From the IMG/VR virus record IMGVR_UViG_3300043410_001192, positions 1 through 24,490 of that record: 24,490 nucleotides of DNA. One strand, given 5' to 3'. The translations under genes were made by a program, and so were the position numbers. The notes under the pieces were generated by a model. The model was not told the origin of the DNA. It worked only from the letters and a program-made list of their open reading frames with translations, and ran no database searches. Positions 6,136 through 24,380 of this stretch are shown piece after piece; position 1 is the first letter of the stretch; every line of letters begins with the position of its first letter. Source of the stretch: a virus.

Positions 6136-6469
6136 AAAATATGCACTATTCATCGGTAGATGGCAAACTTGGCATGAGGGACATGAGTGGTTAATTAACC
6201 AACAATTTGAAAAAGGTAAAAACGTATGGGTTGCAATTAGAGACGTTGATGTGGATGAAAATAACCCAAAAACAGCACAGGAAGTGTTTGAAGACCTTAA
6301 ACATAGGTTACTAAAATATGTTGAGACTGGTCGGTTAATGATTTCGGTGATTCCCGATATCGAATCTGTGAATTATGGTAGAGGAGTGGGGTACGAGGTT
6401 ATTTATCACGAACCTCCTACAGAGATAGGTGAAATAAGTGGTACAAACATTAGAAATGGTTCATTATAA
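6128..6469 (+). CDS. Small HxGH nucleotidyltransferase (cytidylyltransferase/ATP sulfurylase fold)
   Basis: A 113-residue adenylyl- or cytidylyltransferase-like protein. It has the HxGH nucleotide-binding motif at residues 16-19 (GRWQTWHEGHEW) and the second signature ISGTNIR at residues 103-109, which closes the active site in this superfamily. The same ISGTxxR motif occurs in ATP sulfurylases, and the gene overlaps an APS kinase by 8 bases. A role in sulfate activation (making the APS that the kinase uses) is therefore plausible, but the protein is far smaller than classical ATP sulfurylase (about 400 residues), so this is inference. Transfer of a nucleotide to a sugar phosphate or other small molecule is the main alternative. 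Fourteen bases of its 3' end are shared with the DUF2061 gene. Confidence 0.8.
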   Translation: MSKKYALFIGRWQTWHEGHEWLINQQFEKGKNVWVAIRDVDVDENNPKTAQEVFEDLKHRLLKYVETGRLMISVIPDIESVNYGRGVGYEVIYHEPPTEIGEISGTNIRNGSL

Positions 6470-6754: not shown

Positions 6755-8647
6755 ATGAAAGGAACTTTTTTTTCGGCGGATTTCGTAACAGACAAGGACG
6801 ACAATCTACGTCTAATTGAAATTAACACCGATACGGGTATATTGGAATCACAAAAGTGGGTTTTTGATTGGACCGACTTTATTAGTGTGTTAAGTGCAAA
6901 TAATATTACTGAAGTTGAAGTGGTATACAAATATGATATCCAAAAAGATATCATTTCAAGTTTATCTGAGGCGTTAACAAATAATGCACCATTCATTACT
7001 TCGTTTACTGAACATATTGTTGCTGCGGACTCAATATTCCCAACTTCACCTACAGATTCACCAAGTAAATTCATTATTAGATTCGCATATGATGAATCCG
7101 CAATTTTGGATTCTGAATATGCAAAGGGAACCTTAAATTTATTAAAACTATTTGCAGATGAAAACGATACTGGTTCAATAACCAATTTCTATCATTCATC
7201 TTCATATTACGGATATTATAATACATTAGACCAAAATCAATTTAACGGGTCTAATTTACCTGATATTGTGACTAAAACAGTATTGGAGGCTCACCAACCA
7301 CATAAATTCTATAAGATTGGTAATTCTGATTCTGGTTCGTTAGTTAGATATGAAAGTTTCATCGATAGAATTGCAACCTCAGATAATATTTTACAACAAT
7401 ACCATATCCCACAATCACAAATTACTAAAGGAACTGTTAGTTCAATTCGTAGTTTCCAAATTGTATATGGTTCTAATTTAGATGTATGTTATGTTGCACA
7501 ATATGAAATTGATTCAGTTTTAGATTTACCAACATCAATCACATATGATGACAGTAGAATTGACAATCAAATTGAGAGTAAACACTACTACGAATATGCA
7601 ACAAATACAATTAAAAATACGAATCACGGACTTTTAGAAAATGAAACAATTTTAGATGTCAATGGAAACGAAGTAGAAGTAAAAGATGTTGTTTTAGGAA
7701 ATACATATAAATCATATTATGTGGAAGGTTCACCTAATACGGATGATTATGACGTTTTAAGACAATGGTACGTAACAGGTTCAACATTACCTGAAGGTTC
7801 CTATCTTACATCTTCAGTATTAGTTGGTAAGTTTGAAGCAACTACCTTCGCTAATGATATGACTGAAATCGTTTTCCAAGATGGTTCAGACATTGTAATC
7901 GGGGGTGAAGCTAGAATGTTAGTATATAATCAATTAGAAGATAAAATCCAATATGTTAGAGTATCGGAATTAGACACTAACTATTCAGTTATTGGACAAA
8001 ACGGATTAAATCCAATTAGTCAAATAAACTTGAATATTTACGATGAAGAACAACCAATATACAATATGAACATGGAAGAAGTCGATAACTTCATTTTAAG
8101 TAATGGTAATTTATTGACATTCTACATTACTCACAACTTAGGTATTTCAGGTAGTTGTTTTAAGGCTGGTACTAAAGTTAGAATGGCGGATGGTACTGAA
8201 AAAAATATCGAAGATGTACAAATTGGTGACCAAGTAATGTCATATAATGAAACAACAAATGAGATTGAACCTAAAGAAGTTATCGATACTAAACAACCGA
8301 TTCACAATGATTTAGTGAAGTATACATTTGATAAAGTTCTTGTTAAAGCTACAGAACCGAGAGAGGAGGATGTCTTATTAACATTGACATGTACTCAAGA
8401 CCACCCAATCTATGTGAATGGATTAAATTTAGCATCTTATAACCCAGCTTTAACAATTCAAAGATATAATTTAGGAAGACCAATAAACGCGTTAGAAAGT
8501 GATGATGTGGCAAATCTTTATGATGGAACCACAACAGTTTTAAATGGTTTACAGAAATTACCTGAAGTAGATACACAAACATACATTATAACTGTGGCGG
8601 ATAATCATAACTTTTATGCAAATAACATATTAGTACATAACAAATAA
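6755..8647 (+). CDS. Phage protein with C-terminal Hint (intein-like) domain and a degenerate Hint-like repeat
   Basis: 630 residues; a stop in frame at 6740 fixes the start. The C-terminal part (residues 468-630) is a Hint autoprocessing domain: it opens with CFKAGTKV (C468), has NIEDVQIGDQVMSYN, the block-B histidine in TQDHPIYV (H550), and ends HNFYANNILVHNK (H628, N629). Only one residue follows the Asn, so protein splicing with a C-extein is excluded; cleavage or ester formation at C468 remains possible. Residues about 290-461 look like another Hint domain (ETILDVNGNEVEVKDVVLG, IVFQDGSDIVIGGEA, IYNMNMEEVDNFILSNG, ending in HN at 460-461), but no Cys is at the first position and the TxxH histidine is replaced by Ala. 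The N-terminus (DNLRLIEINTDTG, residues 16-28) weakly resembles the metal-binding end of an ATP-grasp fold; otherwise residues 1-290 are unrecognised. The neighbours do not show whether the protein is structural. Confidence 0.85.
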   Translation: MKGTFFSADFVTDKDDNLRLIEINTDTGILESQKWVFDWTDFISVLSANNITEVEVVYKYDIQKDIISSLSEALTNNAPFITSFTEHIVAADSIFPTSPTDSPSKFIIRFAYDESAILDSEYAKGTLNLLKLFADENDTGSITNFYHSSSYYGYYNTLDQNQFNGSNLPDIVTKTVLEAHQPHKFYKIGNSDSGSLVRYESFIDRIATSDNILQQYHIPQSQITKGTVSSIRSFQIVYGSNLDVCYVAQYEIDSVLDLPTSITYDDSRIDNQIESKHYYEYATNTIKNTNHGLLENETILDVNGNEVEVKDVVLGNTYKSYYVEGSPNTDDYDVLRQWYVTGSTLPEGSYLTSSVLVGKFEATTFANDMTEIVFQDGSDIVIGGEARMLVYNQLEDKIQYVRVSELDTNYSVIGQNGLNPISQINLNIYDEEQPIYNMNMEEVDNFILSNGNLLTFYITHNLGISGSCFKAGTKVRMADGTEKNIEDVQIGDQVMSYNETTNEIEPKEVIDTKQPIHNDLVKYTFDKVLVKATEPREEDVLLTLTCTQDHPIYVNGLNLASYNPALTIQRYNLGRPINALESDDVANLYDGTTTVLNGLQKLPEVDTQTYIITVADNHNFYANNILVHNK

Positions 8648-8809: not shown

Positions 8810-9448
8810 ATGAAAAATATTTGGGTGTTCGGTGATAGTTTCACCGACAAACGTATCCTTTCCAATAATAATAGTTACACAGATTGGAAAGGATACATAC
8901 CAAAAACCTACCATGAAATATTGGGTGAAGAATTAAATTTACCCGTTAAGAATTTCGCTGAAAGTTATGGTATGGATAATTACACGATATTTCAAACATT
9001 GTGTAATAATATAAACGAAATCAATCAAGATATTGTTGTTATCAATTGGAGTGAACCTGTTAGGTTTAGATTAGTTGACACTGCAACACAGAAATGGAGA
9101 ACTGCATTACCAGTAAGAAGCTCAAGAGTTGCTAAAGGATTACCATATGTAAATGGAGTAAAAGATGAAACTATTTTAGACGTATTTTCAAATAGAGAAA
9201 ATCAATTATGGTTAACAGAAATTGATAGTTGGATTAAACTAATCAATCGTGCTTTAGTTGACTCGACTGTCATTCATTGGACTTGGTATAACAACACGCA
9301 ATACCAATCCATAACTGAAGAAACAGATGGGGAAGTGGTTGATTTTCATTACTCTGAAAAGGGTCATTTAGATTTGGCGAATTGGATATTAGAACAAATA
9401 AAAATAGGTACAAATAAAAGTCCCTACACTCAAAATTCAATACTATGA
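8810..9448 (+). CDS. SGNH/GDSL-type hydrolase
   Basis: A 212-residue SGNH-fold protein, a family that includes esterases, lipases and sugar O-acetylesterases. Block I is VFGDSFT with the nucleophile S10, and block V is DFHYSEKGH with D178 and H180 as the remaining catalytic pair. The block II Gly (in FAESYGMDN) and a block III-like segment (VVINWSEP) are less canonical. No signal peptide is seen, so it should be cytoplasmic. It starts a nine-gene chain in which every junction overlaps by 1-4 bases. A paralogue lies two genes downstream, with a shared segment WKGYxPKxYxxxxxEELN and RFRLV. A role in removing acyl groups from glycans made by neighbouring enzymes fits the context, but the substrate is unknown and O-acetyl transfer is also possible in this fold. 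Confidence 0.75.
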   Translation: MKNIWVFGDSFTDKRILSNNNSYTDWKGYIPKTYHEILGEELNLPVKNFAESYGMDNYTIFQTLCNNINEINQDIVVINWSEPVRFRLVDTATQKWRTALPVRSSRVAKGLPYVNGVKDETILDVFSNRENQLWLTEIDSWIKLINRALVDSTVIHWTWYNNTQYQSITEETDGEVVDFHYSEKGHLDLANWILEQIKIGTNKSPYTQNSIL

Positions 9449-10002
9449 TAAATTATGAAGGTGTTGTTTTCACCAAAGAGGATTGTGAAGATATTAAAAA
9501 TAATGTCGGTGATTGGATGGACGCTAAACTCTTAGTTAAAAGGGGTTTAGGTGAGGTGGAAGATATTGTCGTTCAAAATAAAAGATACAATAAGGCGTCC
9601 TATTTTAAATTAAAAAATAATTCCCCATATTATCATAAACTAAATGAAGCAATTAAGAGTTTTGGTTATGAGTTAATTGCTGAAGAATTAGATGCGGGGG
9701 TATTGAAATATGAAAAAGGTAACTTTATTTTCCTACATAATGATTTACCAATAGAAGGTGAGAAAAGATTCTTTTGTATTGTTACTCAGTTAAGTGAAAA
9801 CGATGACTATGTTGGTGGAGATTTTCGTTATTTAATAGACAATCAACCAAATGTAATGAATAGAACAATTGGTAATGCAATTATGTTTAAACCGGAGGTT
9901 TTACACGAGGTTACGATAGTTGAAAATGGAACTAGATTCTCATTAGTAATTTGGATTAACTACGAACAGGTAAAATCCCTGTCAAAACCATCTTTAATAT
10001 AA
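9445..10002 (+). CDS. 2-oxoglutarate/Fe(II)-dependent oxygenase, prolyl-4-hydroxylase-like
   Basis: A 185-residue non-haem iron oxygenase that should hydroxylate a substrate using O2 and 2-oxoglutarate. The facial triad is visible as H98-N-D100 (FLHNDL) and H154 (VLHEVT), and R164 in TRFSLV would bind the 2-oxoglutarate carboxylate. The context GGDFRYL before the second His is typical of the P4H-like/PKHD group. The start ATG overlaps the previous stop (ATGA), and the stop TAA shares one base with the next ATG. Family members hydroxylate proline, asparagine, small molecules or nucleobases, so the acceptor is open. It lies between two SGNH hydrolase paralogues, which suggests an inserted or co-inherited pair. 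Confidence 0.85.
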   Translation: MINYEGVVFTKEDCEDIKNNVGDWMDAKLLVKRGLGEVEDIVVQNKRYNKASYFKLKNNSPYYHKLNEAIKSFGYELIAEELDAGVLKYEKGNFIFLHNDLPIEGEKRFFCIVTQLSENDDYVGGDFRYLIDNQPNVMNRTIGNAIMFKPEVLHEVTIVENGTRFSLVIWINYEQVKSLSKPSLI

Positions 10003-11314: not shown

Positions 11315-12069
11315 AATTAGTATGGACATACAATATATTGGCTAAGGTTGGGAACAAAACCGAAGAACGAAAAAGGATATTGATAAATTATTACATTTTA
11401 TCGATTCAATCGGCAAAACGATTTGGATATTATTGTATTATATATACCGACTCATTTTCTGCAAAGTATTTTGAAAAAATTGTAGATGAAATTCACATAT
11501 ATGACAATTACGAAAATTCAATACAATGGGATTGTTATAAGATAAAGGCGTGTGAAGAAAGAGATGATGACTTTGTTTTGATAGATGGGGATGTTATTCT
11601 ACACGCCAAATTACCTCCTATGGAAGATGATGTTATGTTTGATACCTATGAGGTTGCAAATTGGAAAGATGAATATGAACCGGTTATAAATCAGTTCACA
11701 AAATTAGGTATAGATAAAGTTATTGATGTTTGGTGTGATAAAAGAAAACTTGTTTTTTCATGTGGAATATTATATTTTAAAAACGATTCAGATAGAAAAT
11801 TTTATGTTGACCAATGGAAAAAATATAATAACTTCTTAAATGAAATCATGAAAACAAATGAGGTAGATGTCGATGTTGCAACAATGGTTGGCGGACAATA
11901 TCTGGTAACCTTATGTGCCAATTATTTGAATTTAAATAGAAGTTATTTAACACCACATTTAGGTGCAATTGGTAACTCATATAAACATCATTGTGGAGCA
12001 TTAAAATATAATAACCCAATAGTACCGAAAGATTACATAATAAGTGTTGAAAATAAAATTTTAATTTAA
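11311..12069 (+). CDS. Putative glycosyltransferase, GT-A type with DGD motif
   Basis: A 252-residue protein with a GT-A-like arrangement. The N-terminal strand MKLVWTYNIL is followed by a helix rich in Arg/Lys, the strand YYCIIYTDSF, and the acidic motif FVLIDGDVIL (D92, D94), which in this fold binds metal and the nucleotide-sugar. The same VxIDGDVxx motif recurs in the second domain of the protein at 15246-17969, so the two are probably related. Downstream, FSCGILYF and HHCGALKYN would shape the acceptor site. The start overlaps the previous stop (ATGA), and the final base of its TAA opens the next gene. Donor and acceptor are unknown. Fold assignment is moderate, since the call rests mainly on the DxD context. 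Confidence 0.6.
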   Translation: MKLVWTYNILAKVGNKTEERKRILINYYILSIQSAKRFGYYCIIYTDSFSAKYFEKIVDEIHIYDNYENSIQWDCYKIKACEERDDDFVLIDGDVILHAKLPPMEDDVMFDTYEVANWKDEYEPVINQFTKLGIDKVIDVWCDKRKLVFSCGILYFKNDSDRKFYVDQWKKYNNFLNEIMKTNEVDVDVATMVGGQYLVTLCANYLNLNRSYLTPHLGAIGNSYKHHCGALKYNNPIVPKDYIISVENKILI

Positions 12070-13112
12070 TGAAGTTAGATTTAAGAAAACATTATATATG
12101 TAAAGTTCCTTTTGAATATATGGAGGTACACCATATGGGTGTATATAGTTGTTGTCCAGCTTGGTTACCCACTAAACTTAGCGATATAAAGGATGTTTCT
12201 ACGGTATGGGAGAGTGATACGTTAAAAGAAGTGCAAAACTCAATATTAGATGGTTCATATTCTCATTGTGTTGAGGAATTATGTCCAGTATTATCCGAAT
12301 TAGTTAATCAAGGTACTGTAGATAAAGGGTTTTTCATTACCAAAGACGAATTTTCAAAAAATGATTATAGTAATCCAAAGATTATAAACTACTCATTTGA
12401 TAGGAGTTGTAATTTATCCTGCCCAAGTTGTAGAAAAGAATCAATAATGGCTAATTCGGAAGAAATAAGTGAAATAGACTCAACGATAAAAGAGATTGAG
12501 ACAACTTACGGTGGTAAACTGAAAGGTCTTTATCTGTCAGGAACTGCGGACCCGTTTGCATCGAAATCATTTCGTAAATTATTAACACAATTCGATAGAA
12601 CAAAGTATCCTAATGTAAATGATATACATTTACATACAAATGCCATACTATTGAATCAGGATATGTGGAATAAGATGAGTAAGATACATTCAATGATACG
12701 AATTATTGAAATCAGTATTGATGCTGCAACAAAAGAAACTTATGAGGTTGTTAGAAGAGGAGGTAATTGGGATACACTAATTGAAAACTTAAAATTCATT
12801 GCAACTTTACCAATAGGAGAGAAAAGAATATCAATGATTGTCCAAGACACTAATTTTATGGAAATGGAACTGTTCTACAATTTGATGTCAGAGATATTCA
12901 ACAATAAGGCGAGAATATATTTTAAAAGAATCGATAACTGGGGGACATTTACCGAAGAGGAATTTAAAGAAAAAGAAGTGTTTAGAGAAGACCACCCAAT
13001 GTTTAATTTATTTTTATTACAATTATTAAAGATAGATAAAAAATACAATTCTTTTCATAATATGCATGACATTGTTTTAAAACATTTAAAACAAGAGGTA
13101 AAACTAATATAA
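12069..13112 (+). CDS. Radical SAM protein, short twitch type, GGEP motif altered
   Basis: A 347-residue radical SAM protein of a second subgroup, most similar to the one at 14166-15209. The core motif is CNLSCPSC (C114, C118, C121). N-terminal extra cysteines are ICKVPF, a CC pair in YSCCPAW, and HCVEELCP, consistent with a twitch-type auxiliary cluster region. Where the first three radical SAM proteins of the window have GGEP, this one has LSGTADPFAS, so the SAM-contact loop is changed though placed correctly after the strand LYL. SIDAATKETYEVVRRGG matches a conserved stretch seen in peptide- and sugar-modifying radical SAM families. It is followed directly by two oxygenases, then by its paralogue. 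Substrate unknown. Confidence 0.88.
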   Translation: MKLDLRKHYICKVPFEYMEVHHMGVYSCCPAWLPTKLSDIKDVSTVWESDTLKEVQNSILDGSYSHCVEELCPVLSELVNQGTVDKGFFITKDEFSKNDYSNPKIINYSFDRSCNLSCPSCRKESIMANSEEISEIDSTIKEIETTYGGKLKGLYLSGTADPFASKSFRKLLTQFDRTKYPNVNDIHLHTNAILLNQDMWNKMSKIHSMIRIIEISIDAATKETYEVVRRGGNWDTLIENLKFIATLPIGEKRISMIVQDTNFMEMELFYNLMSEIFNNKARIYFKRIDNWGTFTEEEFKEKEVFREDHPMFNLFLLQLLKIDKKYNSFHNMHDIVLKHLKQEVKLI

Positions 13113-13687
13113 TGGAGATAGTATTAAGTGAAAAATATTCGATATATGTAATTGATTACGAAGGTATTCACGATAAAGATGATTTTTTAAGGAGGTCATA
13201 TGAAATTATAAAATTAAAAAAGACACATCCAACAGATAGAAATCATTTTTTCTACGTTCCATTTAGATGTTCAGAGATTGATGAATTAAATGAACAAATA
13301 TTGAATTTTTGTGAAAACTTTAAAGAATTTGATGAATTTGCAGTTCAGAATTGGGTTTACTTAATGACAAATAAAACTAATAATGAGATTTATCATACAC
13401 ATATAAATTTAGTGGAAGGAGATGAGAGAATTAAGACAGATTGGACTTTTTGTTTTTATGTTCAAGTACCTAATGAATTAGAGGGTAATGACGGTAAAAT
13501 TTCCTTTAGGACTGAGGATGGGGTAGAACACATGTTCTTACCAAAGGAAGGTGAAATTTATATCTTTCCGGCAGATTTAGAACACACACCAAAACTTATA
13601 AAGAAATCTAAAATAGATAGAGTTGTAATTGCCGGTAACATTAGTTTAGACCCATTATCAATTATAAAAAATAAAAAACTACTGTGA
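13112..13687 (+). CDS. 2-oxoglutarate/Fe(II) oxygenase-like protein with HxH in place of HxD
   Basis: A 191-residue protein with the C-terminal architecture of the 2OG-FeII_Oxy_5-like group. It has a histidine-rich strand YHTHINL (H95, H97), a conserved LPKEGEIYIFPADLEH with H158, and R170 in DRVVIAGNIS. The order His, FPxxLxH, Arg then a strand ending in Asn is typical of that group. The first motif reads H-T-H rather than the HxD of the two other oxygenases in the window; from memory this group can have H-x-H, so this may be normal. The start is the ATG sharing a base with the upstream TAA. Function is presumed hydroxylation with an unknown acceptor; a non-enzymatic cupin-like role is the alternative. 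Confidence 0.65.
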   Translation: MEIVLSEKYSIYVIDYEGIHDKDDFLRRSYEIIKLKKTHPTDRNHFFYVPFRCSEIDELNEQILNFCENFKEFDEFAVQNWVYLMTNKTNNEIYHTHINLVEGDERIKTDWTFCFYVQVPNELEGNDGKISFRTEDGVEHMFLPKEGEIYIFPADLEHTPKLIKKSKIDRVVIAGNISLDPLSIIKNKKLL

Positions 13688-14169
13688 TAACCGAATATAA
13701 AGATTTACTAACAAACGACGAGTTAAGTTACATACTCAAAAGGTGTGATTCATTTGTTAAAAATAATCAAACAATACCTGACGGTTTAAATTGGTTTTAC
13801 AATAGTATGCATCTATATGATGACACTAATTTAAATGAATTTCGTAATAGAGTTTTGGATGTTGTTGGTGATGAATATAACATACAATACAACGGGATTT
13901 TCATAAATAAAATTGTACCTGAGACAAATAAAAATGATGGATATCATAGAGATGAAAGTGATTTAACTATTGTTACATATCTAAACGATAACTTTATAGG
14001 TGGTGAATTTGAATATATTATAAACAACGAATTAAAAATAATAAAACCTGAAACGAATTTATCTATTATGATGGATAAAAAAATATTACACAGAGTTTTA
14101 CCGATAACCGAAGGTGTAAGATATAGTTTGGTAACTTGGTTTAGATTGATAAACAAAAATATTATATGA
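13684..14169 (+). CDS. 2-oxoglutarate/Fe(II)-dependent oxygenase, small P4H-like, GTG start
   Basis: A 161-residue oxygenase with a complete iron and co-substrate set: H88-R-D90 in GYHRDES, H136 in LHRVLP, and R146 in VRYSLVTW. GGEFEY precedes the second His, as in the oxygenase at 9445-10002, with which it shares layout. I accept the GTG at 13684, which overlaps the upstream TGA as GTGA; this mirrors the ATGA junctions elsewhere in the chain and keeps the N-terminus (ITEYKDLLTNDELSYIL) intact. The protein is near the lower size limit of the fold. It lies between two radical SAM paralogues, so it may act on the same substrate, but nothing in the sequence identifies it. Confidence 0.8.
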   Translation: MITEYKDLLTNDELSYILKRCDSFVKNNQTIPDGLNWFYNSMHLYDDTNLNEFRNRVLDVVGDEYNIQYNGIFINKIVPETNKNDGYHRDESDLTIVTYLNDNFIGGEFEYIINNELKIIKPETNLSIMMDKKILHRVLPITEGVRYSLVTWFRLINKNII

Positions 14170-15209
14170 AACCAAATTTAAAAGATTACATATGTTTAAA
14201 TCCATTTAGAATATTAGAAATGCATGAATATTTCCATGCATTATGTGTCCCCGAATGGTTGTTAAAGTATATACCGGTTGATACCAAAGTTGAAGATATT
14301 TGGAATTCAGATGTTGCTAAACAAATTAGAGAATCGGTAACCGATGGTTCATATAAATTCTGTGACACCGAACAATGTCCATACCTAAGTCATCTATTAA
14401 GATATAATGAAGTGGATGACAAAGGTCCAATTATACATAAATCAAAATTACCAAATAATTTCTTTTCGGAAAAAAGTCCAAGTAGAATTGATTTTGATTT
14501 TGATAGAACTTGTAACTATAAATGTCCATCTTGTAGAAAATCCGTTTACACTGCCGACAAAGAAAAAATTGAGGAGGTAAAAAACACCATAACGGAAATT
14601 GAAAACGTATTTGGTTCGGATGTTGAGGTGTTATATCTAAGTGCGAGTGGGGACCCATTTGCATCAGTATCCTATAGAAACTTTCTTAAAAACTTTGACC
14701 CATCAAAGTTTCCTAAATTAAAAAACATACATTTCCACACCAACGCATCAAATTGGTCTAAAGAAATGTGGGAATCAATGCCAAATGTCCATAACTATGT
14801 TGGTTCATGTGAAATTAGTATTGATGCAGCAACAAAAGAAACATATGAAACAAAAGTCAGATTAAATGGTAAATGGGATAGACTTATTGAGAATTTAAAG
14901 TTTATTAGTACAATCAAATCATTAAAATTAGTTAAACTATCCTTTGTAACCCAACAAAAGAACTATAAGGAAATGAAGATGTTTGTCGATATTATGAAAG
15001 GAATATTTGGTAAAAAACTCTTGGTCTTATTTGTTAAAATAAACAATTGGGGTACGTTTACTGAAGAAGAATTCTTAAAGGAAAAGATATGGGATGAGTC
15101 ACATCCTGAACATTCACAATTTATAGATGAGGTTATGAAAATACATGGAGACCCACAAGTTTATCACAATTTCCATGAGTTCATTGTTGCAAATAAAAAC
15201 CTTATTTAG
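14166..15209 (+). CDS. Radical SAM protein, short twitch type
   Basis: A 347-residue paralogue of the protein at 12069-13112, the same length and similar throughout, for example in PSCRK, DPFAS, SIDAATKETYE, LIENLKFI and NNWGTFTEEEF. The radical SAM motif is CNYKCPSC (C116, C120, C123). The SAM-loop motif is LSASGDPFAS instead of GGEP. In the N-terminal twitch region the CC pair of the paralogue is reduced to a single Cys (HALCVPEW), while ICLNPF and FCDTEQCP are kept. Its auxiliary cluster, if present, may therefore have one different ligand. It is the last gene of the overlapping chain that began at 8810; a 36-base A/T-rich gap follows. Confidence 0.88.
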   Translation: MKPNLKDYICLNPFRILEMHEYFHALCVPEWLLKYIPVDTKVEDIWNSDVAKQIRESVTDGSYKFCDTEQCPYLSHLLRYNEVDDKGPIIHKSKLPNNFFSEKSPSRIDFDFDRTCNYKCPSCRKSVYTADKEKIEEVKNTITEIENVFGSDVEVLYLSASGDPFASVSYRNFLKNFDPSKFPKLKNIHFHTNASNWSKEMWESMPNVHNYVGSCEISIDAATKETYETKVRLNGKWDRLIENLKFISTIKSLKLVKLSFVTQQKNYKEMKMFVDIMKGIFGKKLLVLFVKINNWGTFTEEEFLKEKIWDESHPEHSQFIDEVMKIHGDPQVYHNFHEFIVANKNLI

Positions 15210-15245: not shown

Positions 15246-17969
15246 ATGAAAATACTAGCTCACACTTCATTTATTGGAACAACAGGATATGCGAATCACG
15301 CTAGGTCCTTTTTTTGTGCGTTAAATAAATACCATACGGTTAAAGTTAGAAATCTAACAATAGGTAGTGGTTGGAAAGGGTATAAATTAAACGCACATGA
15401 CGATGAACCGTATATTACGGATGAAATGAAATCTATGTTATATCAACAAACATTATATAACACAGATGATACGATGACGGATTTTCCCCTTTACGAATAT
15501 GACGGAAATTATAAACCCGATGTTAATATTGTTTTGGTGGAAATGAATAATCATTATTTTAATGATGATTATGGAGGTTATAAAATTGCATATAATGTTT
15601 GGGAATCAACCAGATATCCAGATGATTTTTTTAATAGGTTACATTATTTCGATGAAGTATGGGTCCCAACACAATGGCAATTTGATTCATTGGTAGAACA
15701 AGGTTACCCAAAAGAAAAGATTTCAATAGTACCTGAAGGTGTTGATGTTGATACCTTTAAACCAATAGAAAAGTTTCCTAAAAAAGATAAATTTAGATTC
15801 TTACTATTTGGTAGATGGGATTACAGAAAATCAACTACCGAGATTATTAGAACTTTCGGTGAAACATTTAAAGACAACGATGACGTTGAGTTAATAGCAT
15901 CCGTTGAAAATCCATATCCATCAGATGGTATGAATTCAACACAAGAAAGAATCATCGAACATAAGTTATTATATAAAAACATTAGGTATATTGATTTCCC
16001 AAGTAGAGAGGAATATGTAAAATATCTTCAAGAGGGTGATGTCTTTTTGTCTTGTGCCAGAAGTGAAGGTTGGAACTTACCTTTGATTGAGGCGATGGCT
16101 TGTGGAACCCCATCAATTTATTCAAACTACGGAGGACAATTGCAATTTGCACAAAATAAGGGCATTGCGGTTGAAATATCACACATGAGACAGGCGAATA
16201 TTGGTGATGTGGATGTACCTGGTGAATATTGTGAGCCTGATTTTAATGATTTGTCTTTTAAGATGAGACAAGCGTATGAATATTATACCGCCACGTTAAT
16301 TAAGTCGAGAGAAGAATCAAAGGACATACACAAAAATTTTAATTGGGACATAATAGCAAAAAACGCATCCAATCTTTTAGAATCAAAAATGAAGAAGTTT
16401 GCATTTGTTACCACAGGTAATATTGGTTACATGCCCGTGATTGAAAAATTAGTACAATCATTGTTAGAATTTTCAGAACAAAAGATTATAGTTTATGGTG
16501 TGGATTGTGATGTGCCTTTTGATTATCCTAATGTAATCAAACGAAGAATTGACCCACCAAAAATATCGGAACACGATAAGTGGTATTGGAAACAATATAC
16601 TTGTTTGGAATCACTAAATGAAGGATTTGAATATCTGATATGGATTGATGGTGATGTTGTGGTAAATTACAATATTGATACTGTAAAAAAATATTTTAAC
16701 CGAGTTGGTAGATACCCACTATCCGATATACATGTACAAGAAGAGTTCTTTGGGATGTATGATAATGGAAACAAATCACAATTGTTTAATGAAGAACTTG
16801 CTAAAAAATGGGGAACAGAAAAAGTACAACCTTACATGCATATTTGTTTCTTCATTTATAATCACGGTTCAAAATCACACTTCCTACAAATATTAACAGA
16901 ATACCGAACGTTAATAAAAGAAAATCCTGAAGATTATAGTAAGTATTTTTTATGGAATGATGAAGGTATAGATAATGCGTTGAGATGGTATAATGGATAT
17001 ACTAACCATTTACCGTTATCAAACTTTGATACATCATCATATGATGGAGATGAAGGATATATTGATAAAACATTACACCAATTTTATAAATTTTGGAATG
17101 AGGAAGGACCACAAAATTTTAACAGAATCTTTGGTTATCAAATTATACCAAAAGACAAATCAAATATTATATATTTCCACGGAAATAAAAATGCCGAAAT
17201 ATCTGATAAGATGATTGAGTTCATTAAGATGAAGAAAGATAATTCATTCTATAAATCAAAATGTTTTTACACCGATGTTTATAAATTAGAAAATTACGAA
17301 TCTCTTTATGAGTATGAAGGAAGTACAATGGAGGTTGCACAAAAATTTGGTTGGGCACCTGCAATTTTTCATGAGATATACAATTTAAGAGATTACTATA
17401 AAAATAGAGAACGAACAATTAACGAAGGTGATGTTGTTGTTGATTTAGGGGGAAATATTGGTGTGTTTAATAGATGGGCTTATAGTCAGGGTGCAAGTAA
17501 AGTAATTTCATTTGAACCCGACAAGAGATATTTTAAATTACTTTCATTAAATGCAGACCCAAGGTCAATATTATTTAACGCCGCTGGTAGTAATTCTATG
17601 GGTGAAATGAGTTTATATGAAAGTACCCATTTAGGTGGTTCTAATTTATTCGGAACTCAAAAAGACGCTAAAGAATATAAAGTTAGAACTTATACTTTAG
17701 ATTATCTTTTTGATACCGGTTTGATAGATAAAATAGATTTCTTAAAAGTGGACATTGAAGGTGCGGAACATCACGCATTTGGTGGGATAAGTGATAGTAA
17801 TTTAATGAAAGTAAAAACAATTTCAATGGAATATCATCACAGTCACTTTAATTATGATGAAAAATTAAGACAAGATTTAATCGATAGAATGAATAGACTT
17901 GGTTTTAACTCATATCTAATGTATATGGGGAATAACGATAATTTACAAATGATATATTTTACAAGATGA
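15246..17969 (+). CDS. Three-domain protein: GT4 glycosyltransferase, GT-A-like domain, FkbM methyltransferase
   Basis: A 907-residue fusion. Residues 1-381 are a GT-B glycosyltransferase of family 4: an N-terminal domain, then FLLFGRWDYRKST, and EGWNLPLIEAMACGTPSI with the E-x7-E pair (E274, E282) that binds the nucleotide-sugar. Residues 382 to about 690 restart with MKKFAFVTTGNIGYMP and contain WIDGDVVV (D468, D470), like a second, GT-A-type transferase. Residues about 700-907 are an FkbM-type SAM methyltransferase with VDLGGNIGV (from D733), SFEPDKRYF and LKVDIEGAEHHA, which should methylate a sugar hydroxyl. One chain could thus add two sugars and methyl-cap a glycan. The gene starts after a 36-base gap and its stop overlaps the next methyltransferase (ATGA). 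Donor sugars and acceptor are unknown. Confidence 0.9.
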   Translation: MKILAHTSFIGTTGYANHARSFFCALNKYHTVKVRNLTIGSGWKGYKLNAHDDEPYITDEMKSMLYQQTLYNTDDTMTDFPLYEYDGNYKPDVNIVLVEMNNHYFNDDYGGYKIAYNVWESTRYPDDFFNRLHYFDEVWVPTQWQFDSLVEQGYPKEKISIVPEGVDVDTFKPIEKFPKKDKFRFLLFGRWDYRKSTTEIIRTFGETFKDNDDVELIASVENPYPSDGMNSTQERIIEHKLLYKNIRYIDFPSREEYVKYLQEGDVFLSCARSEGWNLPLIEAMACGTPSIYSNYGGQLQFAQNKGIAVEISHMRQANIGDVDVPGEYCEPDFNDLSFKMRQAYEYYTATLIKSREESKDIHKNFNWDIIAKNASNLLESKMKKFAFVTTGNIGYMPVIEKLVQSLLEFSEQKIIVYGVDCDVPFDYPNVIKRRIDPPKISEHDKWYWKQYTCLESLNEGFEYLIWIDGDVVVNYNIDTVKKYFNRVGRYPLSDIHVQEEFFGMYDNGNKSQLFNEELAKKWGTEKVQPYMHICFFIYNHGSKSHFLQILTEYRTLIKENPEDYSKYFLWNDEGIDNALRWYNGYTNHLPLSNFDTSSYDGDEGYIDKTLHQFYKFWNEEGPQNFNRIFGYQIIPKDKSNIIYFHGNKNAEISDKMIEFIKMKKDNSFYKSKCFYTDVYKLENYESLYEYEGSTMEVAQKFGWAPAIFHEIYNLRDYYKNRERTINEGDVVVDLGGNIGVFNRWAYSQGASKVISFEPDKRYFKLLSLNADPRSILFNAAGSNSMGEMSLYESTHLGGSNLFGTQKDAKEYKVRTYTLDYLFDTGLIDKIDFLKVDIEGAEHHAFGGISDSNLMKVKTISMEYHHSHFNYDEKLRQDLIDRMNRLGFNSYLMYMGNNDNLQMIYFTR

Positions 17970-18628
17970 GTACCTTAGATAGTATTGCAAAATCACATGG
18001 AACGGATAAGAGTTCCGATATTCACAATTATTGTGTTAAGTACCAAAAGTACTTACCATTTAATAGATATGATAATCTAAACATTATGGAAATCGGTGTG
18101 TTAGATGGTAAATCATTATTAACATGGAAAGATTACTTTTACCGTTCTCAAATTTTAGGTATTGATATCAACCCAGAATGTAAAAAATTTGAGGAATCTG
18201 GTGTAATGGTTGAAATAGGTTCGCAATACGATGGTAACTTCTTATCAAGAATATGGCAACAATATGGCCCATTTGATATGATATTAGATGATGGGTCACA
18301 TATGAATGAACATGTTATATTTTCATTTGAACATTTATTTGATTCCGTTAAATCTGGTGGTGTCTACATTATTGAAGATGTTTGTACATCTTATTGGTAT
18401 CAATACAATGGAGGTTATTTAAAACAGGATTCAATGATGGAATATTTTAAATCATTAACAGATGACGTTAATTTTAGAGGTTTAGAAAATCACGATAACC
18501 CAAATGGTGTTTGGCATAGAAGAGAAAGTAATTTAGATGACTTATCTAAAAGAAGTCAACCACAATGTAGAACTGATATAGAATCAATTAACTTCCTTAA
18601 TGGAATTATTATTATAACAAAGAGATAA
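17966..18628 (+). CDS. Class I SAM methyltransferase, MycE/macrocin-type sugar O-methyltransferase-like
   Basis: A 220-residue methyltransferase. It has the N-terminal signature SHGTDKSSDIHNYCVKYQKY, then the SAM-binding MEIGVLDGKSLLTWKDYF (E42, G44, G48), GIDINPEC, and ILDDGSHMNEH (D108, D109, H112), followed by SGGVYIIED. This series is what I know from the catalytic domain of macrolide-sugar O-methyltransferases such as MycE, where the DDGSH acidic residues bind a divalent metal. O-methylation of a sugar is therefore the likely reaction. It overlaps by 4 bases with the upstream glycosyltransferase-FkbM fusion and by 1 base with the next glycosyltransferase, so it appears to be part of the same glycan-building unit. 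The exact acceptor cannot be stated. Confidence 0.88.
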   Translation: MSTLDSIAKSHGTDKSSDIHNYCVKYQKYLPFNRYDNLNIMEIGVLDGKSLLTWKDYFYRSQILGIDINPECKKFEESGVMVEIGSQYDGNFLSRIWQQYGPFDMILDDGSHMNEHVIFSFEHLFDSVKSGGVYIIEDVCTSYWYQYNGGYLKQDSMMEYFKSLTDDVNFRGLENHDNPNGVWHRRESNLDDLSKRSQPQCRTDIESINFLNGIIIITKR

Positions 18629-21333
18629 TGGCACATATTGAACAAAGAGAATTTTGTGAACGAGTAAAAAAAATGTACCCAAACTTTTTTAAAAACAAAA
18701 AGGTATTGGATATTGGTTCGTTAGACATAAACGGTAGTAATAGAAGTTTATTTGAAAACTGTGATTATGTTGGTATCGATGTTGGTGAAGGTAAAAATGT
18801 AGATATTGTGAGTGTCGGACATCTTTATAAGGGTCCCGATAATGAGTATGATACAATCATATCAACAGAAGTATTTGAACACGATATGTTCTATCCACAG
18901 ACAATACAAAATGTGATGAGAATGTTAAAACCTGGTGGTTTATTCTTGTTTACATGTGCTTCTCCTGGTAGACCAGAACATGGTACAAGAAGACAAGGTG
19001 AACATTGTGCACCATTACTATTACAAGTGTCAGAAGAATGGGCAGATTACTATAAAAATTTAACTGAATTGGATATTAGACAAATTGATGGGTTTAATGA
19101 TACATTTACAAACACATACTTTGAAATAAAAGATGAGGATATTGAAATACCATCAGATTTATATTTTTATGGATTTAAGAAAGAAGAGTCTAAGGTAAAA
19201 TATGACCAATTTAATGAGGATTTATTCGTAATTGATTGTTGGTTAGATACAAAAGAAAAAGAAGACACTCTTAAAGAGTTAATTTCAAAATTAAAAGTAT
19301 ATGGAGTGCCGATTTTATTGTGTGGACACTATAAAGTTAACGAGGAAATACAAAGTTTAGTGGATTATTTCATTTATGATGGAAATAACGATTTATTACT
19401 GGAAAAAGATTTTCACAAATATGGTATTGAAAGTGATAGATGGTCTGATTTGACGGAATATAAAATAATCAATAAAGTTAGTTTCCATCACGATTATGCA
19501 ATATGGTTAACAATGAAAAATGCGTTTAATTTTGCAAATCAAATTGGAAAAAAATATGTACACTTTCTTGAATATGATAATTTACCTGATGAGATACAAT
19601 ATAGACAATCTTTTTTGGAGTACATTAGACATCACGATGCCGTTGTTCAGGAATACGACGAGGGTTCAACGAGATTAGATAATCCATACTCTGCAGCATA
19701 TATATTTTCAATAAGAACTGAAATTGGTCAGTCCATGGTCAATTTGATAAACAGTAAGGAAGAGTTTTTCAATAATAAACCGAATTTTTGGCAGTTAGAG
19801 AAACAATTATACCAATCCATAAAGAAAATAACAAATAATATTTTTGTTAGCAAATATATTCCTAATGAAAATGAGTTAAATTTATTTGCAGCTTGGAATA
19901 GGAATGGTATATTAAAGAATGGAGCCAAATTCCAAACATATTTTGGCGTTGACGAGGATAAAAATCTTTACATACATTTTATATCTGGGTTTGATAATGA
20001 ACCAGCAAATGGTGATTACTTAGTTGAGATAAATTATAGAGATTATAAAAAATTCTATACAATTAAAAAAGGACAATACCATATTGAAAATATTGGAATG
20101 TATAAACAAAATGAGGTTGTTAAAGTTTTCTATTGTGGGGTTGAAGTCGTTAATGAAAAATTAACAAGTACGGTTGATGAATATAGAAGACGTAATAAAG
20201 TTGAAAAAAAGAATATTTTTAGAGACCAAAGAAACACAAAAGTAAATTTAAATTTTATTGATGGACCGTTCATTGAAATATTAAATGATAATAACTCAAA
20301 TTATCATGTAGAATTCATCAATCAAAAAAATAATAAGGTTGAGTACCAATTAAATCTTAAAAGTAACCATTGGGCAAAATGCTCAATAAAATATTATGTT
20401 AATTGGTTAATTAAAGTTAGGGGTATCGATAATGATTATTATTTGGAATATAAATTTAATCCTAAAAAACAAAGAATTTTAATTGCATATGAAACCAAAT
20501 CTTTGGGTGATAATTTGGCAAATATACCTTATGTTGAGGAATTTAGAAAACAAAACGATTGTGAAGTAATATGTTCAACTTTCTTTAACGATTTATTTAA
20601 AGAGCAATACCCAAATATACAATTTGTTGAACCGGGTACTACTGTTAATAATTTATATGCACTATATAGATTGGGTATGTTCTATACCGAAAATAGAGAA
20701 TCTGTTTGTTATTTTTCACACCCAACAGACCCTAAATCCGAACCATTAACAAAAATTGCATCTGATATTCTTGGTTTAACGTATAAAGAAATTAGACCCA
20801 AATTAAAAAAGTTAGGTAAGGATGTTAAAAAAAGAGTGTGTATCGCAATCCACTCAACTGCACAATGCAAATATTGGAACAATCCAAATGGGTGGCAGGA
20901 AATTACCGATTACTTAAATGAAAAAGGTTATGAGGTAAGATTACTTTCAAGAGAGGAAGACGGTTATATGGGGAATAGTAACCCAAAAGGGGTGATTCAA
21001 CAACCAAGTGGTAGTTTAGGTGATGTGATAAAAGTTTTACAAGAATCTGAACTATTCATAGGGATTAGTAGTGGATTAAGTTGGTTGTCTTGGGCTAGCG
21101 GAACCCCAACAATTTTGATATCAGGATTTACCGACGTTTATACTGAACCATTGGAAGGAGTTAGTAGAATTATTAACAAAGATGTATGTAATAGTTGTTG
21201 GAATAAGTATGATTTTGATATGGGTGATTGGAATTGGTGTCCCGTACATAAAAACACAGATAAACAATTTGAATGCTCCAAAAATATCACATCTCAAGAC
21301 GTTATTAGAGAGATTGACAAGTTATTGTTCTAA
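18628..21333 (+). CDS. Fusion of SAM methyltransferase, putative glycosyltransferase and TibC/Aah-like O-heptosyltransferase
   Basis: A 901-residue fusion. Residues 1 to about 190 are a class I methyltransferase (VLDIGSLDINGS with D28 and G30; EVFEHDMFYP; MLKPGGLFLFT). Residues about 200-430 have a GT-A-like middle part with YVHFLEYDN (D317). From about residue 535 to the end it matches bacterial autotransporter heptosyltransferases such as TibC and Aah: NFIDGPFIEIL, YHVEFIN, NHWAKCSIKYYVNWLIKV, then a GT9-type fold with SLGDNLANIPYVEEF, AIHSTAQCKYWNNPNGWQEI, LFIGISSGLSWLSWASGTPT. It ends in a four-cysteine segment (C854, C857, C871, C883) with CNSCW and DWNWCP, matching the iron-binding finger of TibC. 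Relatives transfer heptose to serines of repetitive surface proteins in the cytoplasm. The gene ends 57 bases before a Gly-X-Ser fibre gene, which suggests that protein as acceptor. Matches are from memory; donor sugar unknown. Confidence 0.88.
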   Translation: MAHIEQREFCERVKKMYPNFFKNKKVLDIGSLDINGSNRSLFENCDYVGIDVGEGKNVDIVSVGHLYKGPDNEYDTIISTEVFEHDMFYPQTIQNVMRMLKPGGLFLFTCASPGRPEHGTRRQGEHCAPLLLQVSEEWADYYKNLTELDIRQIDGFNDTFTNTYFEIKDEDIEIPSDLYFYGFKKEESKVKYDQFNEDLFVIDCWLDTKEKEDTLKELISKLKVYGVPILLCGHYKVNEEIQSLVDYFIYDGNNDLLLEKDFHKYGIESDRWSDLTEYKIINKVSFHHDYAIWLTMKNAFNFANQIGKKYVHFLEYDNLPDEIQYRQSFLEYIRHHDAVVQEYDEGSTRLDNPYSAAYIFSIRTEIGQSMVNLINSKEEFFNNKPNFWQLEKQLYQSIKKITNNIFVSKYIPNENELNLFAAWNRNGILKNGAKFQTYFGVDEDKNLYIHFISGFDNEPANGDYLVEINYRDYKKFYTIKKGQYHIENIGMYKQNEVVKVFYCGVEVVNEKLTSTVDEYRRRNKVEKKNIFRDQRNTKVNLNFIDGPFIEILNDNNSNYHVEFINQKNNKVEYQLNLKSNHWAKCSIKYYVNWLIKVRGIDNDYYLEYKFNPKKQRILIAYETKSLGDNLANIPYVEEFRKQNDCEVICSTFFNDLFKEQYPNIQFVEPGTTVNNLYALYRLGMFYTENRESVCYFSHPTDPKSEPLTKIASDILGLTYKEIRPKLKKLGKDVKKRVCIAIHSTAQCKYWNNPNGWQEITDYLNEKGYEVRLLSREEDGYMGNSNPKGVIQQPSGSLGDVIKVLQESELFIGISSGLSWLSWASGTPTILISGFTDVYTEPLEGVSRIINKDVCNSCWNKYDFDMGDWNWCPVHKNTDKQFECSKNITSQDVIREIDKLLF

Positions 21334-21389: not shown

Positions 21390-24380
21390 ATGAAAATATT
21401 TGATGCCAGTATAACGGGTTCGATGGAAGTGGCCGGAAGTGGTCACATTGCGGGAAACCTAACAGTAGACGGAGTAATAAACGCTTCAATAAGTGGTACC
21501 ACATCCAACGCAGTTTCCGCGTCACACGCTGCGAGTTACACTTTGACATCTTCATTTTATGAATTTACGTCATCGTATCGTACTGGTTCATTCACCGGTA
21601 GTTTTGAAGGTGATGGTAATGGTTTATATAATATACCTGCAAGTGGTGTAACAGGTTTACAATTAAATAAAATTTCAGATGGAAATACCAACGCTCAAGT
21701 TTATGATGGTGTTGGTTTAAGAATAAATGATGATACCTTTGTCACCGGTTCAGTATATGTTACAGGTGATGTTGTAATTAACGGTACGTCATATAACGCC
21801 GCAACCTCAGGTACATCTGGCAGTTCAGGGTCAAGTGGTACATCAGGTACAAGTGGTAGTTCAGGTTCTTCAGGTAGTAGTGGAACTAGCGGTTCTTCTG
21901 GTAGTTCAGGTTCTTCAGGTAGTAGTGGAACTAGCGGTACGAGTGGTTCATCAGGAAGTAGTGGTACATCAGGAACATCAGGTTCAAGTGGTACATCAGG
22001 AACATCAGGTTCTTCTGGTTCCGATGGAAGTTCAGGTACTAGTGGAACATCGGGCACAAGTGGAACATCAGGTACAAGTGGAAGTAGTGGAACATCAGGT
22101 ACAAGTGGAACATCAGGCACAAGTGGAAGTAGTGGAACATCAGGTTCTTCTGGTTCCGATGGAAGTTCAGGTACTAGCGGTACATCTGGCAGTTCTGGTT
22201 CATCAGGAAGTAGTGGCACGAGTGGTTCATCAGGAAGTAGCGGTACGGGTGGAACGTCAGGTAGTTCAGGTTCTTCAGGAACAAGTGGTACATCAGGTTC
22301 TAGCGGTTCATCGGGAAGTAGTGGTACCAGTGGTACATCGGGTAGTTCGGGTTCTTCAGGAACTGTGACAATGACAGGAACGCAAGACAATGGATTATTA
22401 ACATTAGACGGTTCATCTCCTAATGTTACAGTTGAATCGAACTTAACGTTTGATGGTAACAATTTAAAATTAGTAGGTAATCAATATATTACGGGTTCAT
22501 TATGGGTAACTCAAGATTTCAATGTATTGGGTTCCGCGTCAATAGTTTATGTGACATCATCACAATTGAATGTCCAAACATCATTTATAAGTGTAAACGT
22601 AAATGAACCATCCGAAAGATTCGGAGGATTAAAAGTATACGATAGTGGTAGTTCAAATGCAACGGCATCATTGGCATGGGATAGTTTAAATAACAGATGG
22701 GTTTATCAAAACGCAAGTGGTTCATCATATAGTGGTGCAATGTTAATAATGGGACCGAGAAATACAGGTTCTTTAGGTGAGGAATTGACATTAACAAGTG
22801 GTAAAATTCCTAAATCAATCGGTGGTGACCATATTGGTGATTCGATTATTTCAGAAAGTACGGGGGCAATTGGTGTATCGGGTAGTTTATCCGTTACAGG
22901 TTCATTATATATTAACGGTTCATCATATACTGCAGCAACTTCAGGAACTAGTGGAACGAGCGGTTCGTCAGGAACATCAGGTTCGTCTGGTAGTTCAGGT
23001 ACTAGTGGAACATCAGGTTCGTCTGGTAGTTCAGGTACTAGTGGAACATCAGGTACAAGTGGAAGTAGTGGTTCTTCAGGAACAAGTGGTTCTTCAGGAA
23101 CATCAGGTTCGTCTGGTAGTTCAGGTACTAGTGGAACATCAGGTACAAGTGGAAGTAGTGGTTCTTCAGGAACAAGTGGCTCATCAGGTTCTTCAGGAAG
23201 TTCAGGCACAAGTGGAAGTAGTGGTTCTTCAGGAACAAGTGGAACATCTGGGTCAAGTGGTACATCAGGAACATCTGGAAGTTCAGGTTCATCAGGTTCT
23301 TCAGGAAGTTCAGGTACATCAGGAAGTAGTGGTAGTTCTGGTACTTCAGGTAGTAGTGGTAGTTCAGGGTCATCGGGAACATCTGGTTCTAATGGAAGTT
23401 CGGGAACAAGTGGTTCGTCGGGCTCTTCAGGTTCATCAGGTTCTAGCGGTTCGTCGGGCTCTTCAGGAAGTAGTGGTGCTGCAACAATCAATAGTAATAC
23501 TGATAACTATGTTATAACAGCAACTGGAACTGCGGGTTTAATTCAAGGAGAACAATATCTACAATATAACGGTACTAAACTCACAGTATCAAATGCAAAT
23601 GTATTTGGTATGATTCAAGGTGGTTCCGATAATTATCACGGTATTGTAATGAGAGGTGATTTTACCGATTCTACAGTTACAACTGTAACGCCTACGGATG
23701 TAATGAATTTTATTGAGTATGGTGGTGTTTGGAAATTTAGACAAGTTAATGGAAGTGCAAACACATTAAGGGCTTATATTGATACAACAAACGGTGGTGG
23801 TCGTTTATTAGATAGTGTTGCATATTCTTATGCCGCTAATATGAATCAAAATGTTAGAACATCAGATTCGCCATCATTTAATTATATAAAATTAACCGCG
23901 GCAAATTCAGGTGGTGGTTCAGCGGGAACTGTTGGATTAAAGTTTTCAGGTTTGAGTGATTATGATAGTTTGGAACTAGGGGTTACGGGTAACTATGACG
24001 GTATGATTAGGACATATGGAAATGATTTAAAAATATACGCAGGTCATTGGAGAAGTACTTCTACAGCATCTGAAGACCATAGTATATATTTCCACACCTC
24101 AAAAAATGGAAGTACAAACTGGAGCACTGCAAAATTAAGACTTGACCATGATGGTCATTTAACACCAGGGTTCAACGCAACACAAAATTTAGGTTCATCA
24201 TCATTAAGGTGGAACATTGTTTATTCGTCTGACTTAAGTTTAAAAAATGAATATGGCGATTACACTTTAGTTGAAGGAGAAAAAGATTTATATTTATACA
24301 ACAATAAATTAAATAAAGTGTTTAAATTTTTATTGGAAGAGGTTGACCCATCAACAGCTCCACCTAAGAAACAAGAATAA
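21390..24380 (+). CDS. Phage fibre-like structural protein with two Gly-X-Ser tracts
   Basis: A 996-residue protein that is probably a trimeric tail or surface fibre. Residues 1-139 are a Thr/Ser/Gly-rich beta-type head with ASHAASYTLTSSF and FEGDGNGLYNIPASGV, motifs common in phage fibres. Residues 140-324 and 518-696 are two tracts of Gly-Thr-Ser and Gly-Ser-Ser triplets, collagen-like in period but without proline. The middle (325-517) is a beta-rich spacer. The module before each tract is duplicated (TGSVYVTGDVVINGTSYNAATSG and TGSLSVTGSLYINGSSYTAATSG in part). The C-terminus (697-996) ends in LSLKNEYGDYTLVEGEKD, a variable linker and FKFLLEEVDPSTAPPKK, an end I associate with marine phage fibres and that may drive trimer assembly. 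No signal peptide or transmembrane segment is seen. It stands downstream of a protein O-glycosyltransferase-like gene, and its many Ser/Thr are candidate acceptors. Assignment as a structural fibre is inference from architecture. Confidence 0.85.
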   Translation: MKIFDASITGSMEVAGSGHIAGNLTVDGVINASISGTTSNAVSASHAASYTLTSSFYEFTSSYRTGSFTGSFEGDGNGLYNIPASGVTGLQLNKISDGNTNAQVYDGVGLRINDDTFVTGSVYVTGDVVINGTSYNAATSGTSGSSGSSGTSGTSGSSGSSGSSGTSGSSGSSGSSGSSGTSGTSGSSGSSGTSGTSGSSGTSGTSGSSGSDGSSGTSGTSGTSGTSGTSGSSGTSGTSGTSGTSGSSGTSGSSGSDGSSGTSGTSGSSGSSGSSGTSGSSGSSGTGGTSGSSGSSGTSGTSGSSGSSGSSGTSGTSGSSGSSGTVTMTGTQDNGLLTLDGSSPNVTVESNLTFDGNNLKLVGNQYITGSLWVTQDFNVLGSASIVYVTSSQLNVQTSFISVNVNEPSERFGGLKVYDSGSSNATASLAWDSLNNRWVYQNASGSSYSGAMLIMGPRNTGSLGEELTLTSGKIPKSIGGDHIGDSIISESTGAIGVSGSLSVTGSLYINGSSYTAATSGTSGTSGSSGTSGSSGSSGTSGTSGSSGSSGTSGTSGTSGSSGSSGTSGSSGTSGSSGSSGTSGTSGTSGSSGSSGTSGSSGSSGSSGTSGSSGSSGTSGTSGSSGTSGTSGSSGSSGSSGSSGTSGSSGSSGTSGSSGSSGSSGTSGSNGSSGTSGSSGSSGSSGSSGSSGSSGSSGAATINSNTDNYVITATGTAGLIQGEQYLQYNGTKLTVSNANVFGMIQGGSDNYHGIVMRGDFTDSTVTTVTPTDVMNFIEYGGVWKFRQVNGSANTLRAYIDTTNGGGRLLDSVAYSYAANMNQNVRTSDSPSFNYIKLTAANSGGGSAGTVGLKFSGLSDYDSLELGVTGNYDGMIRTYGNDLKIYAGHWRSTSTASEDHSIYFHTSKNGSTNWSTAKLRLDHDGHLTPGFNATQNLGSSSLRWNIVYSSDLSLKNEYGDYTLVEGEKDLYLYNNKLNKVFKFLLEEVDPSTAPPKKQE
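21854..21938 (+). repeat. 40-base exact direct repeat within tract 1
   Basis: The 40 bases at 21854-21893 recur at 21899-21938, a 45-base (15-codon) period. The reading frame is kept, so unequal recombination here would change fibre length without a frameshift. Confidence 0.9.
21999..22177 (+). repeat. 44-base exact direct repeat within tract 1 carrying the Asp-containing unit
   Basis: The 44 bases at 21999-22042 recur at 22134-22177, a 135-base (45-codon) period. Each copy includes the only Asp of its region (GSDGSSG), so the rare interruption was spread by duplication rather than by point mutation. Confidence 0.9.
22941..23477 (+). repeat. Gly-X-Ser coding tract 2
   Basis: About 59 nine-base units encoding Gly-X-Ser with X = Thr or Ser and a single Asn interruption (GSNGSSG, near base 23390). 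No Asp unit is present, unlike tract 1. It is about the same length as tract 1 (179 against 185 residues), as if both rods had a similar structural span. Confidence 0.95.
23007..23179 (+). repeat. 83-base exact direct repeat within tract 2
   Basis: The 83 bases at 23007-23089 recur without change at 23097-23179, a 90-base (30-codon) period. The first 48 bases also occur at 22971-23018. With free synonymous variation elsewhere in the tract, identity over 83 bases points to a recent duplication. Confidence 0.92.

Follow-up and report, generated by a model that had tools for sequence, protein, structure and literature searches.

What would an enzyme of the TibC/Aah family, named for O-heptosylation of autotransporters, modify when it is carried by a virus? 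The question is raised by a 24,490-nucleotide stretch of IMG/VR virus record IMGVR_UViG_3300043410_001192 (the window, meaning the whole stretch analyzed), in which a fusion ORF ending in a TibC/Aah-type domain lies next to a tail fiber gene (Table 1). A preliminary description had placed the domain in a phage-like context, which is borne out by the source of the record and by the tail fiber gene directly downstream, but the substrate context was missed. The reading that we consider probable is that the domain is a sister-branch TibC/Aah O-glycosyltransferase that decorates (T/S)SG repeats with a sugar on which partner enzymes then build.

Table 1. Coordinates of the enzyme, its domains and motifs, and the neighboring genes in the window.
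Feature	Position	Strand	Basis
GT4, middle domain and FkbM methyltransferase, 907 aa; upstream cassette member	15246..17969	+	
Methyltransf_24-type methyltransferase; conserved cassette member	17966..18628	+	
Fusion ORF, 901 aa: methyltransferase, GT-A-like domain, beta-sandwich, TibC/Aah-like glycosyltransferase	18628..21333	+	
SAM-dependent methyltransferase (Methyltransf_23), residues 1-185	18628..19182	+	Pfam, PHROG, structural matches
GT-A-like domain, residues ~187-431, with conserved FLEYDNLPDEIQYRQ motif	19186..19920	+	Predicted fold
Beta-sandwich linker domain, residues ~432-534, conserved in clade	19921..20229	+	Strands in models
TibC/Aah-like (BAHT) domain, residues 535-901: beta-barrel, catalytic domain, shortened thumb (GYMGN), four-cysteine finger	20230..21333	+	
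SLGDN (from residue 625); D628 = TibC catalytic base D110	20500..20514	+	Alignment
HSTAQCKYW; T744, K748 = TibC T226, K230	20851..20877	+	Alignment
Cysteine finger; C854, C857, C871, C883 = TibC C339, C342, C358, C370	21187..21276	+	
Tail fiber, 996 aa; proposed substrate	21390..24380	+	phrog_5073 tail fiber E 2.3e-53; Pfam Collagen

The C-terminal domain has the profile and fold of TibC

Profile searches placed the domain in TIGR04414 ("autotransporter strand-loop-strand O-heptosyltransferase") at 285.9 bits, above the curated NCBIfam cut-off of 200 bits; the whole protein scored 282.9 bits (E 3.6e-84), and the same model matched all 23 of the 23 family members tested. LPS heptosyltransferase (generic GT9) models gave 12 to 31 bits, the best being 31.3 against a cut-off of 185, and phmmer against the PDB returned TibC as the sole match (4rap, 8e-52; 4rb4, 1.4e-51). 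An AlphaFold2 model of the whole protein, with a pLDDT of about 90 across the BAHT domain, superposed on TibC with a Z of 41.8 and an rmsd of 1.7 Å over 355 aligned residues, such that residues 536 to 901 aligned to TibC 21-388. The model has the TibC arrangement of an N-terminal beta-barrel, a GT-B catalytic domain and a finger insertion, and Foldseek agreed with the TibC match; WaaC and other GT9 chains superposed at Z 19 to 21, well below TibC. A generic GT9 reading was rejected on profile scores and fold. The family assignment made in the preliminary description therefore survived both the profile search and the structural superposition, and the domain did not fall within generic GT9 alone.

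The residues expected of the family were largely present. The SLGDN and DWNWCP motifs (the latter at residue 867) and the four cysteines lie where they were first described, and W819 aligned with TibC W305. Nearly every viral and bacterial row of the alignment has equivalents of D110, K230, W305 and the four cysteines, with the cysteines kept in all viral rows that reach that part. In TibC, C339, C342, C358 and C370 are ligands of ferric iron (PMC4358343), and C854, C857, C871 and C883 are the predicted metal-binding cysteines of the window enzyme. Members of the family are expected to form a dodecameric ring held by contacts of thumb and finger; the thumb of the window enzyme is shorter than that of TibC, the tip of which (F265/V266) aligned to Y/M. 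That the domain is decaying and nonfunctional is scarcely credible: we found nothing in support, the catalytic and metal residues are intact, and a dN/dS of 0.054 for the BAHT domain relative to the closest relative, L002, indicates purifying selection. We conclude that the domain has the TibC/Aah fold and is predicted to be an inverting GT-B O-glycosyltransferase.

The domain is part of a fusion protein and a conserved cassette

The preliminary description reported that the domain was fused to a methyltransferase and to a putative second transferase. The methyltransferase was confirmed by matches to Methyltransf_23 (Pfam, E 3.4e-10) and phrog_32762 (E 5.7e-49) and by structural matches to SAM methyltransferases (Z ~14). 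Residues 187 to 431 matched no Pfam family in the Pfam search but were modeled with a pLDDT of 84, and their Foldseek/VIA matches were GT-A enzymes, including mannosylglycerate synthase at Z 14.1. The second transferase thus stands as a GT-A-like predicted fold (residues ~195-430) that resembles a GT-A transferase or nucleotidyltransferase, for which a role in sugar transfer may be proposed. The beta-sandwich that follows is 31 to 60% identical among relatives.

The composition had been called unfamiliar among characterized members; the fusion is real but is not unique, as the order methyltransferase, GT-A-like domain and BAHT domain recurs in L016/L020, L018 and L079. Uniqueness to the window was accordingly rejected, at least three other loci having the fusion with Methyltransf_23, and versions lacking the methyltransferase occur in L002-L012. 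Most near relatives keep the GT4-FkbM protein, itself found in at least 18 relatives, and the second methyltransferase together with the enzyme. The only isolated phage found among the relatives was Microcystis phage Mel-JY01, in which counterparts of GT4, GT-A, MT24 and BAHT lie within a single 1226-codon ORF. The Mel-JY01 record (L076, PP395634.1) also has a plus-strand 1016-codon ORF full of TSG repeats at 2-3049, on which two antisense "hypothetical proteins" are annotated (minus strand, 1-651 and 739-2298), apparently spurious translation products of the repeat.

Other genes of the window were noted in passing. Five radical-SAM-like proteins are encoded (52-3852, 12069-13112 and 14166-15209), two of which match the N_Twi twitch-domain subfamily below cut-off, and a 630-aa protein (6755-8647) has a Hint/intein-like domain at its C terminus. 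An APS-kinase-like gene overlaps a short nucleotidyltransferase-like gene (5698-6469), a pair also present in L017 at 60 to 67% identity. The glycan island has three small 2OG-Fe(II) oxygenase-type proteins (9445-10002, 13112-13687 and 13684-14169), the last assigned to this type by similarity in context only.

The enzyme lies outside the autotransporter clade

Scans for relatives yielded 74 loci in viral sequences and 80 in bacterial genomes. A tree built by a quick method from 142 proteins, and containing some long branches, split with a support of 100 into a classical clade of 66 and a sister clade of 76. The classical clade contains TibC, autotransporter-linked enzymes and one viral row; the sister clade contains the window enzyme, almost every other viral row, and bacteria including methanotrophs and Burkholderiales. 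In the part of the sister clade that includes the window, the thumb reads GYMGN or similar. One separate viral branch (L028-L046) keeps R286, and most of its members are without a TSG-type repeat nearby.

The first description had implied an autotransporter-type role, and a phage could have acquired a classical autotransporter heptosyltransferase that acts on host autotransporters, as passing the NCBIfam equivalog cut-off might suggest. We consider this very improbable and rejected it on tree and genomic context: the enzyme falls outside the autotransporter clade, no autotransporter-like gene was found among the ORFs of the window, and a repeat partner is present. We conclude that the implied role is wrong or at least unproven, as the enzyme belongs to a separate clade and its partner is a (T/S)SG-repeat tail fiber.

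The nucleotide sugar may differ from that of TibC

In TibC, T226, K230 and W305 make phosphate and heptose contacts, and R286 contacts adenine; alanine at that position cripples the enzyme (PMC4358343). R286 is reported to be highly conserved in BAHTs but is V800 in the window enzyme, and therefore the donor may differ from that of TibC. Of the earlier label "O-heptosyltransferase," the family, fold, catalytic residues and cysteine finger hold, but the heptosyl part does not follow. The replacement, by V, I, L, M or A, is found in the window clade, in Mel-JY01 and in bacterial L079-L089, and requires only three changes on the tree. Such confinement, the crippling of TibC by alanine, and the scarcity of bona fide ADP-heptose genes, encoded by few of the phage relatives checked, are consistent with a switch of nucleotide sugar in which the substrate is as proposed, the donor is not ADP-heptose, and the altered thumb and missing R286 are signs of the change. 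We regard the switch as a sizeable possibility that falls short of probable, as the K230, T226 and W305 contacts are retained, HldE-type and GmhA-type genes are present in bacterial carriers, and a megaphage with leucine at the R286 position (LR756504) encodes a GmhA above the curated cut-off.

The HldE-type and GmhA-type genes indicate that ADP-heptose is probably available in bacterial carriers. As few phages encode the pathway, the host would supply the sugar, and co-encoding, mostly not found in phages, was not counted as support. Within the window, the nucleotidyltransferase at 6128-6469 was rejected as HldE, having only a weak CTP_transf_like match below cut-off, and a profile search found no rfaE domain I. 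By descent, heptose would be the most likely donor.

Many sister-clade loci are paired with Ser/Thr-Ser-Gly repeats

The tail fiber starts 57 bases past the stop codon of the enzyme and has two Ser/Thr-Gly repeat tracts, at residues 141-326 and 519-698. The triplets are GSS or GTS in 116 of 122 cases, with serine at the third position in those 116 and no proline; glycine falls at every third residue, and Pfam Collagen scored 165 bits against a cut-off of 27. The repeat is, as judged from its sequence, collagen-like. A repeat fiber lies directly downstream in every clade I relative with enough sequence except L015-L018/L020, and in more distant phage relatives (L047-L062) a repeat gene lies 0.4 to 1.3 kb downstream; in some sampled stretches the nearest repeat is 3 to 9 kb away, and many viral relatives, such as L028-L046 and L063-L070, have none nearby. 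In the bacterial relatives (methanotrophs and Burkholderiales) the repeat genes encode small proteins, predicted to be secreted or lipoproteins, whose N termini were read by eye as signal peptides or as lipobox-like (e.g., L088 6859-7806 and L080 9133-9438).

Of 76 sister-clade loci, 40 had Ser/Thr-rich, proline-poor Gly-X-Y genes in their flanks, and of 65 classical-clade loci none did (Fisher p 4e-14, an optimistic value because the loci are related); about half of the sister clade thus has no such repeat in its flanks, some of which are short. The association changes 14 times on the tree. Because of the relatedness of the loci, three further tests of the pairing were run. At least five consecutive (S/T)(S/T)G units occurred in 14 of 16 whole bacterial genomes; in nine genomes (2.3 to 5.5 Mb) the repeat was 45 to 1196 bp from the enzyme, and no further such repeat was found except for one more in a single genome. 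In a sample of 201 genomes of the Methylobacter order, seven had repeats, seven had the YMGN-type enzyme and five had both (hypergeometric p 1.7e-7), with newly seen adjacent pairs in L411 and L413; six classical-type homologues in the same genomes had no repeat within about 1.5 kb. When viral stretches were picked only for TSG repeats, the enzyme was present in 10 of 120, versus 1 of 118 when Gly-Pro-X repeats were the criterion (Fisher p 0.01), that one also having TSG repeats. Gly-Pro-X fibers were thereby rejected as an equal partner. The enzyme is not required for TSG fibers, as 110 of 120 such stretches are without it, and phage loci are not independent, as the cassette is inherited as a block. 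We conclude that the pairing of the enzyme with TSG-type repeats is specific, though most TSG fibers are without the enzyme.

Adjacency to the fiber could also reflect a shared variable island, with the same reaction directed at the host surface (LPS, S-layer or an adhesin) to block superinfection. Foreign genes accumulate in tail fiber regions, LPS is the target of GT9 relatives, and the window has a large surface-glycan-like island (radical-SAM proteins, carbamoyltransferase, SGNH and GT genes). We nevertheless consider a host-surface target unlikely, as bacterial relatives outside phages adjoin the same repeats, Gly-Pro-X stretches have the enzyme only in the one case that also has TSG repeats, and the enzyme has the TibC barrel and finger that LPS heptosyltransferases lack.

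A proposed route to a glycosylated tail fiber

As the same kind of repeat lies beside close phage and bacterial relatives, the branch probably glycosylates a new substrate class. In the cytoplasm, TibC heptosylates autotransporter passengers on serines, not threonines (PMC4358343), and by analogy the phage enzyme may act on serine-rich repeats before assembly. We propose that the repeat shafts of the neighboring fiber are glycosylated in the cytoplasm of the infected cell ahead of virion assembly, and that the acceptors would be Ser (perhaps Thr) hydroxyls in the (T/S)SG repeats rather than an autotransporter. D628 would serve as the base, K748, T744 and W819 would hold the nucleotide sugar, and the cysteine finger may help the oligomer to assemble and the acceptor to bind. 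Extension and O-methylation of the sugar could then fall to the fused GT-A domain, the upstream GT4 and the methyltransferases (MT23, MT24 and FkbM). The glycan would likely stiffen or protect the proline-free collagen-like shaft and alter which surfaces it adheres to; stabilization of such repeats by the sugar is suggested by analogy.

A broader and more doubtful extension, which we offer tentatively, is that proline-free (Thr/Ser)-Ser-Gly repeats have a glycosylation system of their own, in phage tail fibers and in small secreted proteins and lipoproteins of bacteria. A TibC-fold enzyme whose nucleotide recognition has changed would add an O-linked sugar that stabilizes a collagen-like helix in place of proline. 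The pairing offers a large set of phage and environmental enzymes, to which databases would give the name "autotransporter heptosyltransferase," a substrate that can be tested, and it offers the (T/S)SG repeats of phage fibers, very common but unexplained, a possible function. If the proposal is true, O-heptosylation of proteins in the cytoplasm, or a version of it with another donor, is not confined to adhesin virulence factors but extends to components of the virion, and a natural enzyme-repeat pair would be usable for producing glycosylated fiber proteins.

Comparison with known systems

Our search of open-access papers found nothing relevant on phage heptosyltransferases for tail fibers or on TSG repeats. 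Phage-encoded glycosyltransferases that act on virion proteins are known, for example, in mycobacteriophages, and are not known to share the GT family or the acceptors of the window enzyme. Glycosylated collagen-like proteins such as Bacillus BclA have Gly-X-Y repeats and carry O-glycans that are proposed to stabilize a hydration network (PMC8968730). The BclA repeats have proline whereas those of the window fiber have none, and no TibC-type enzyme was found described for BclA in the literature consulted. WaaC and WaaF share the GT-B core with the window enzyme but are without the barrel or cysteine finger and use a lipid acceptor.

The closest known systems are TibC of ETEC and AAH, which like the window enzyme belong to TIGR04414, have the barrel, catalytic lobes and four-cysteine finger, and have D110, T226, K230 and W305 or their equivalents; protein O-glycosylation is expected of the window enzyme as well. 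The window enzyme differs in belonging to the sister clade, in its loss of R286 and its shorter GYMGN thumb, in its fusion to a methyltransferase and a GT-A-like domain, and in being phage borne, with a (T/S)SG-repeat fiber in place of an autotransporter partner. The TibC/Aah family was already known; what is new is a phage-linked branch with a strong substrate prediction.
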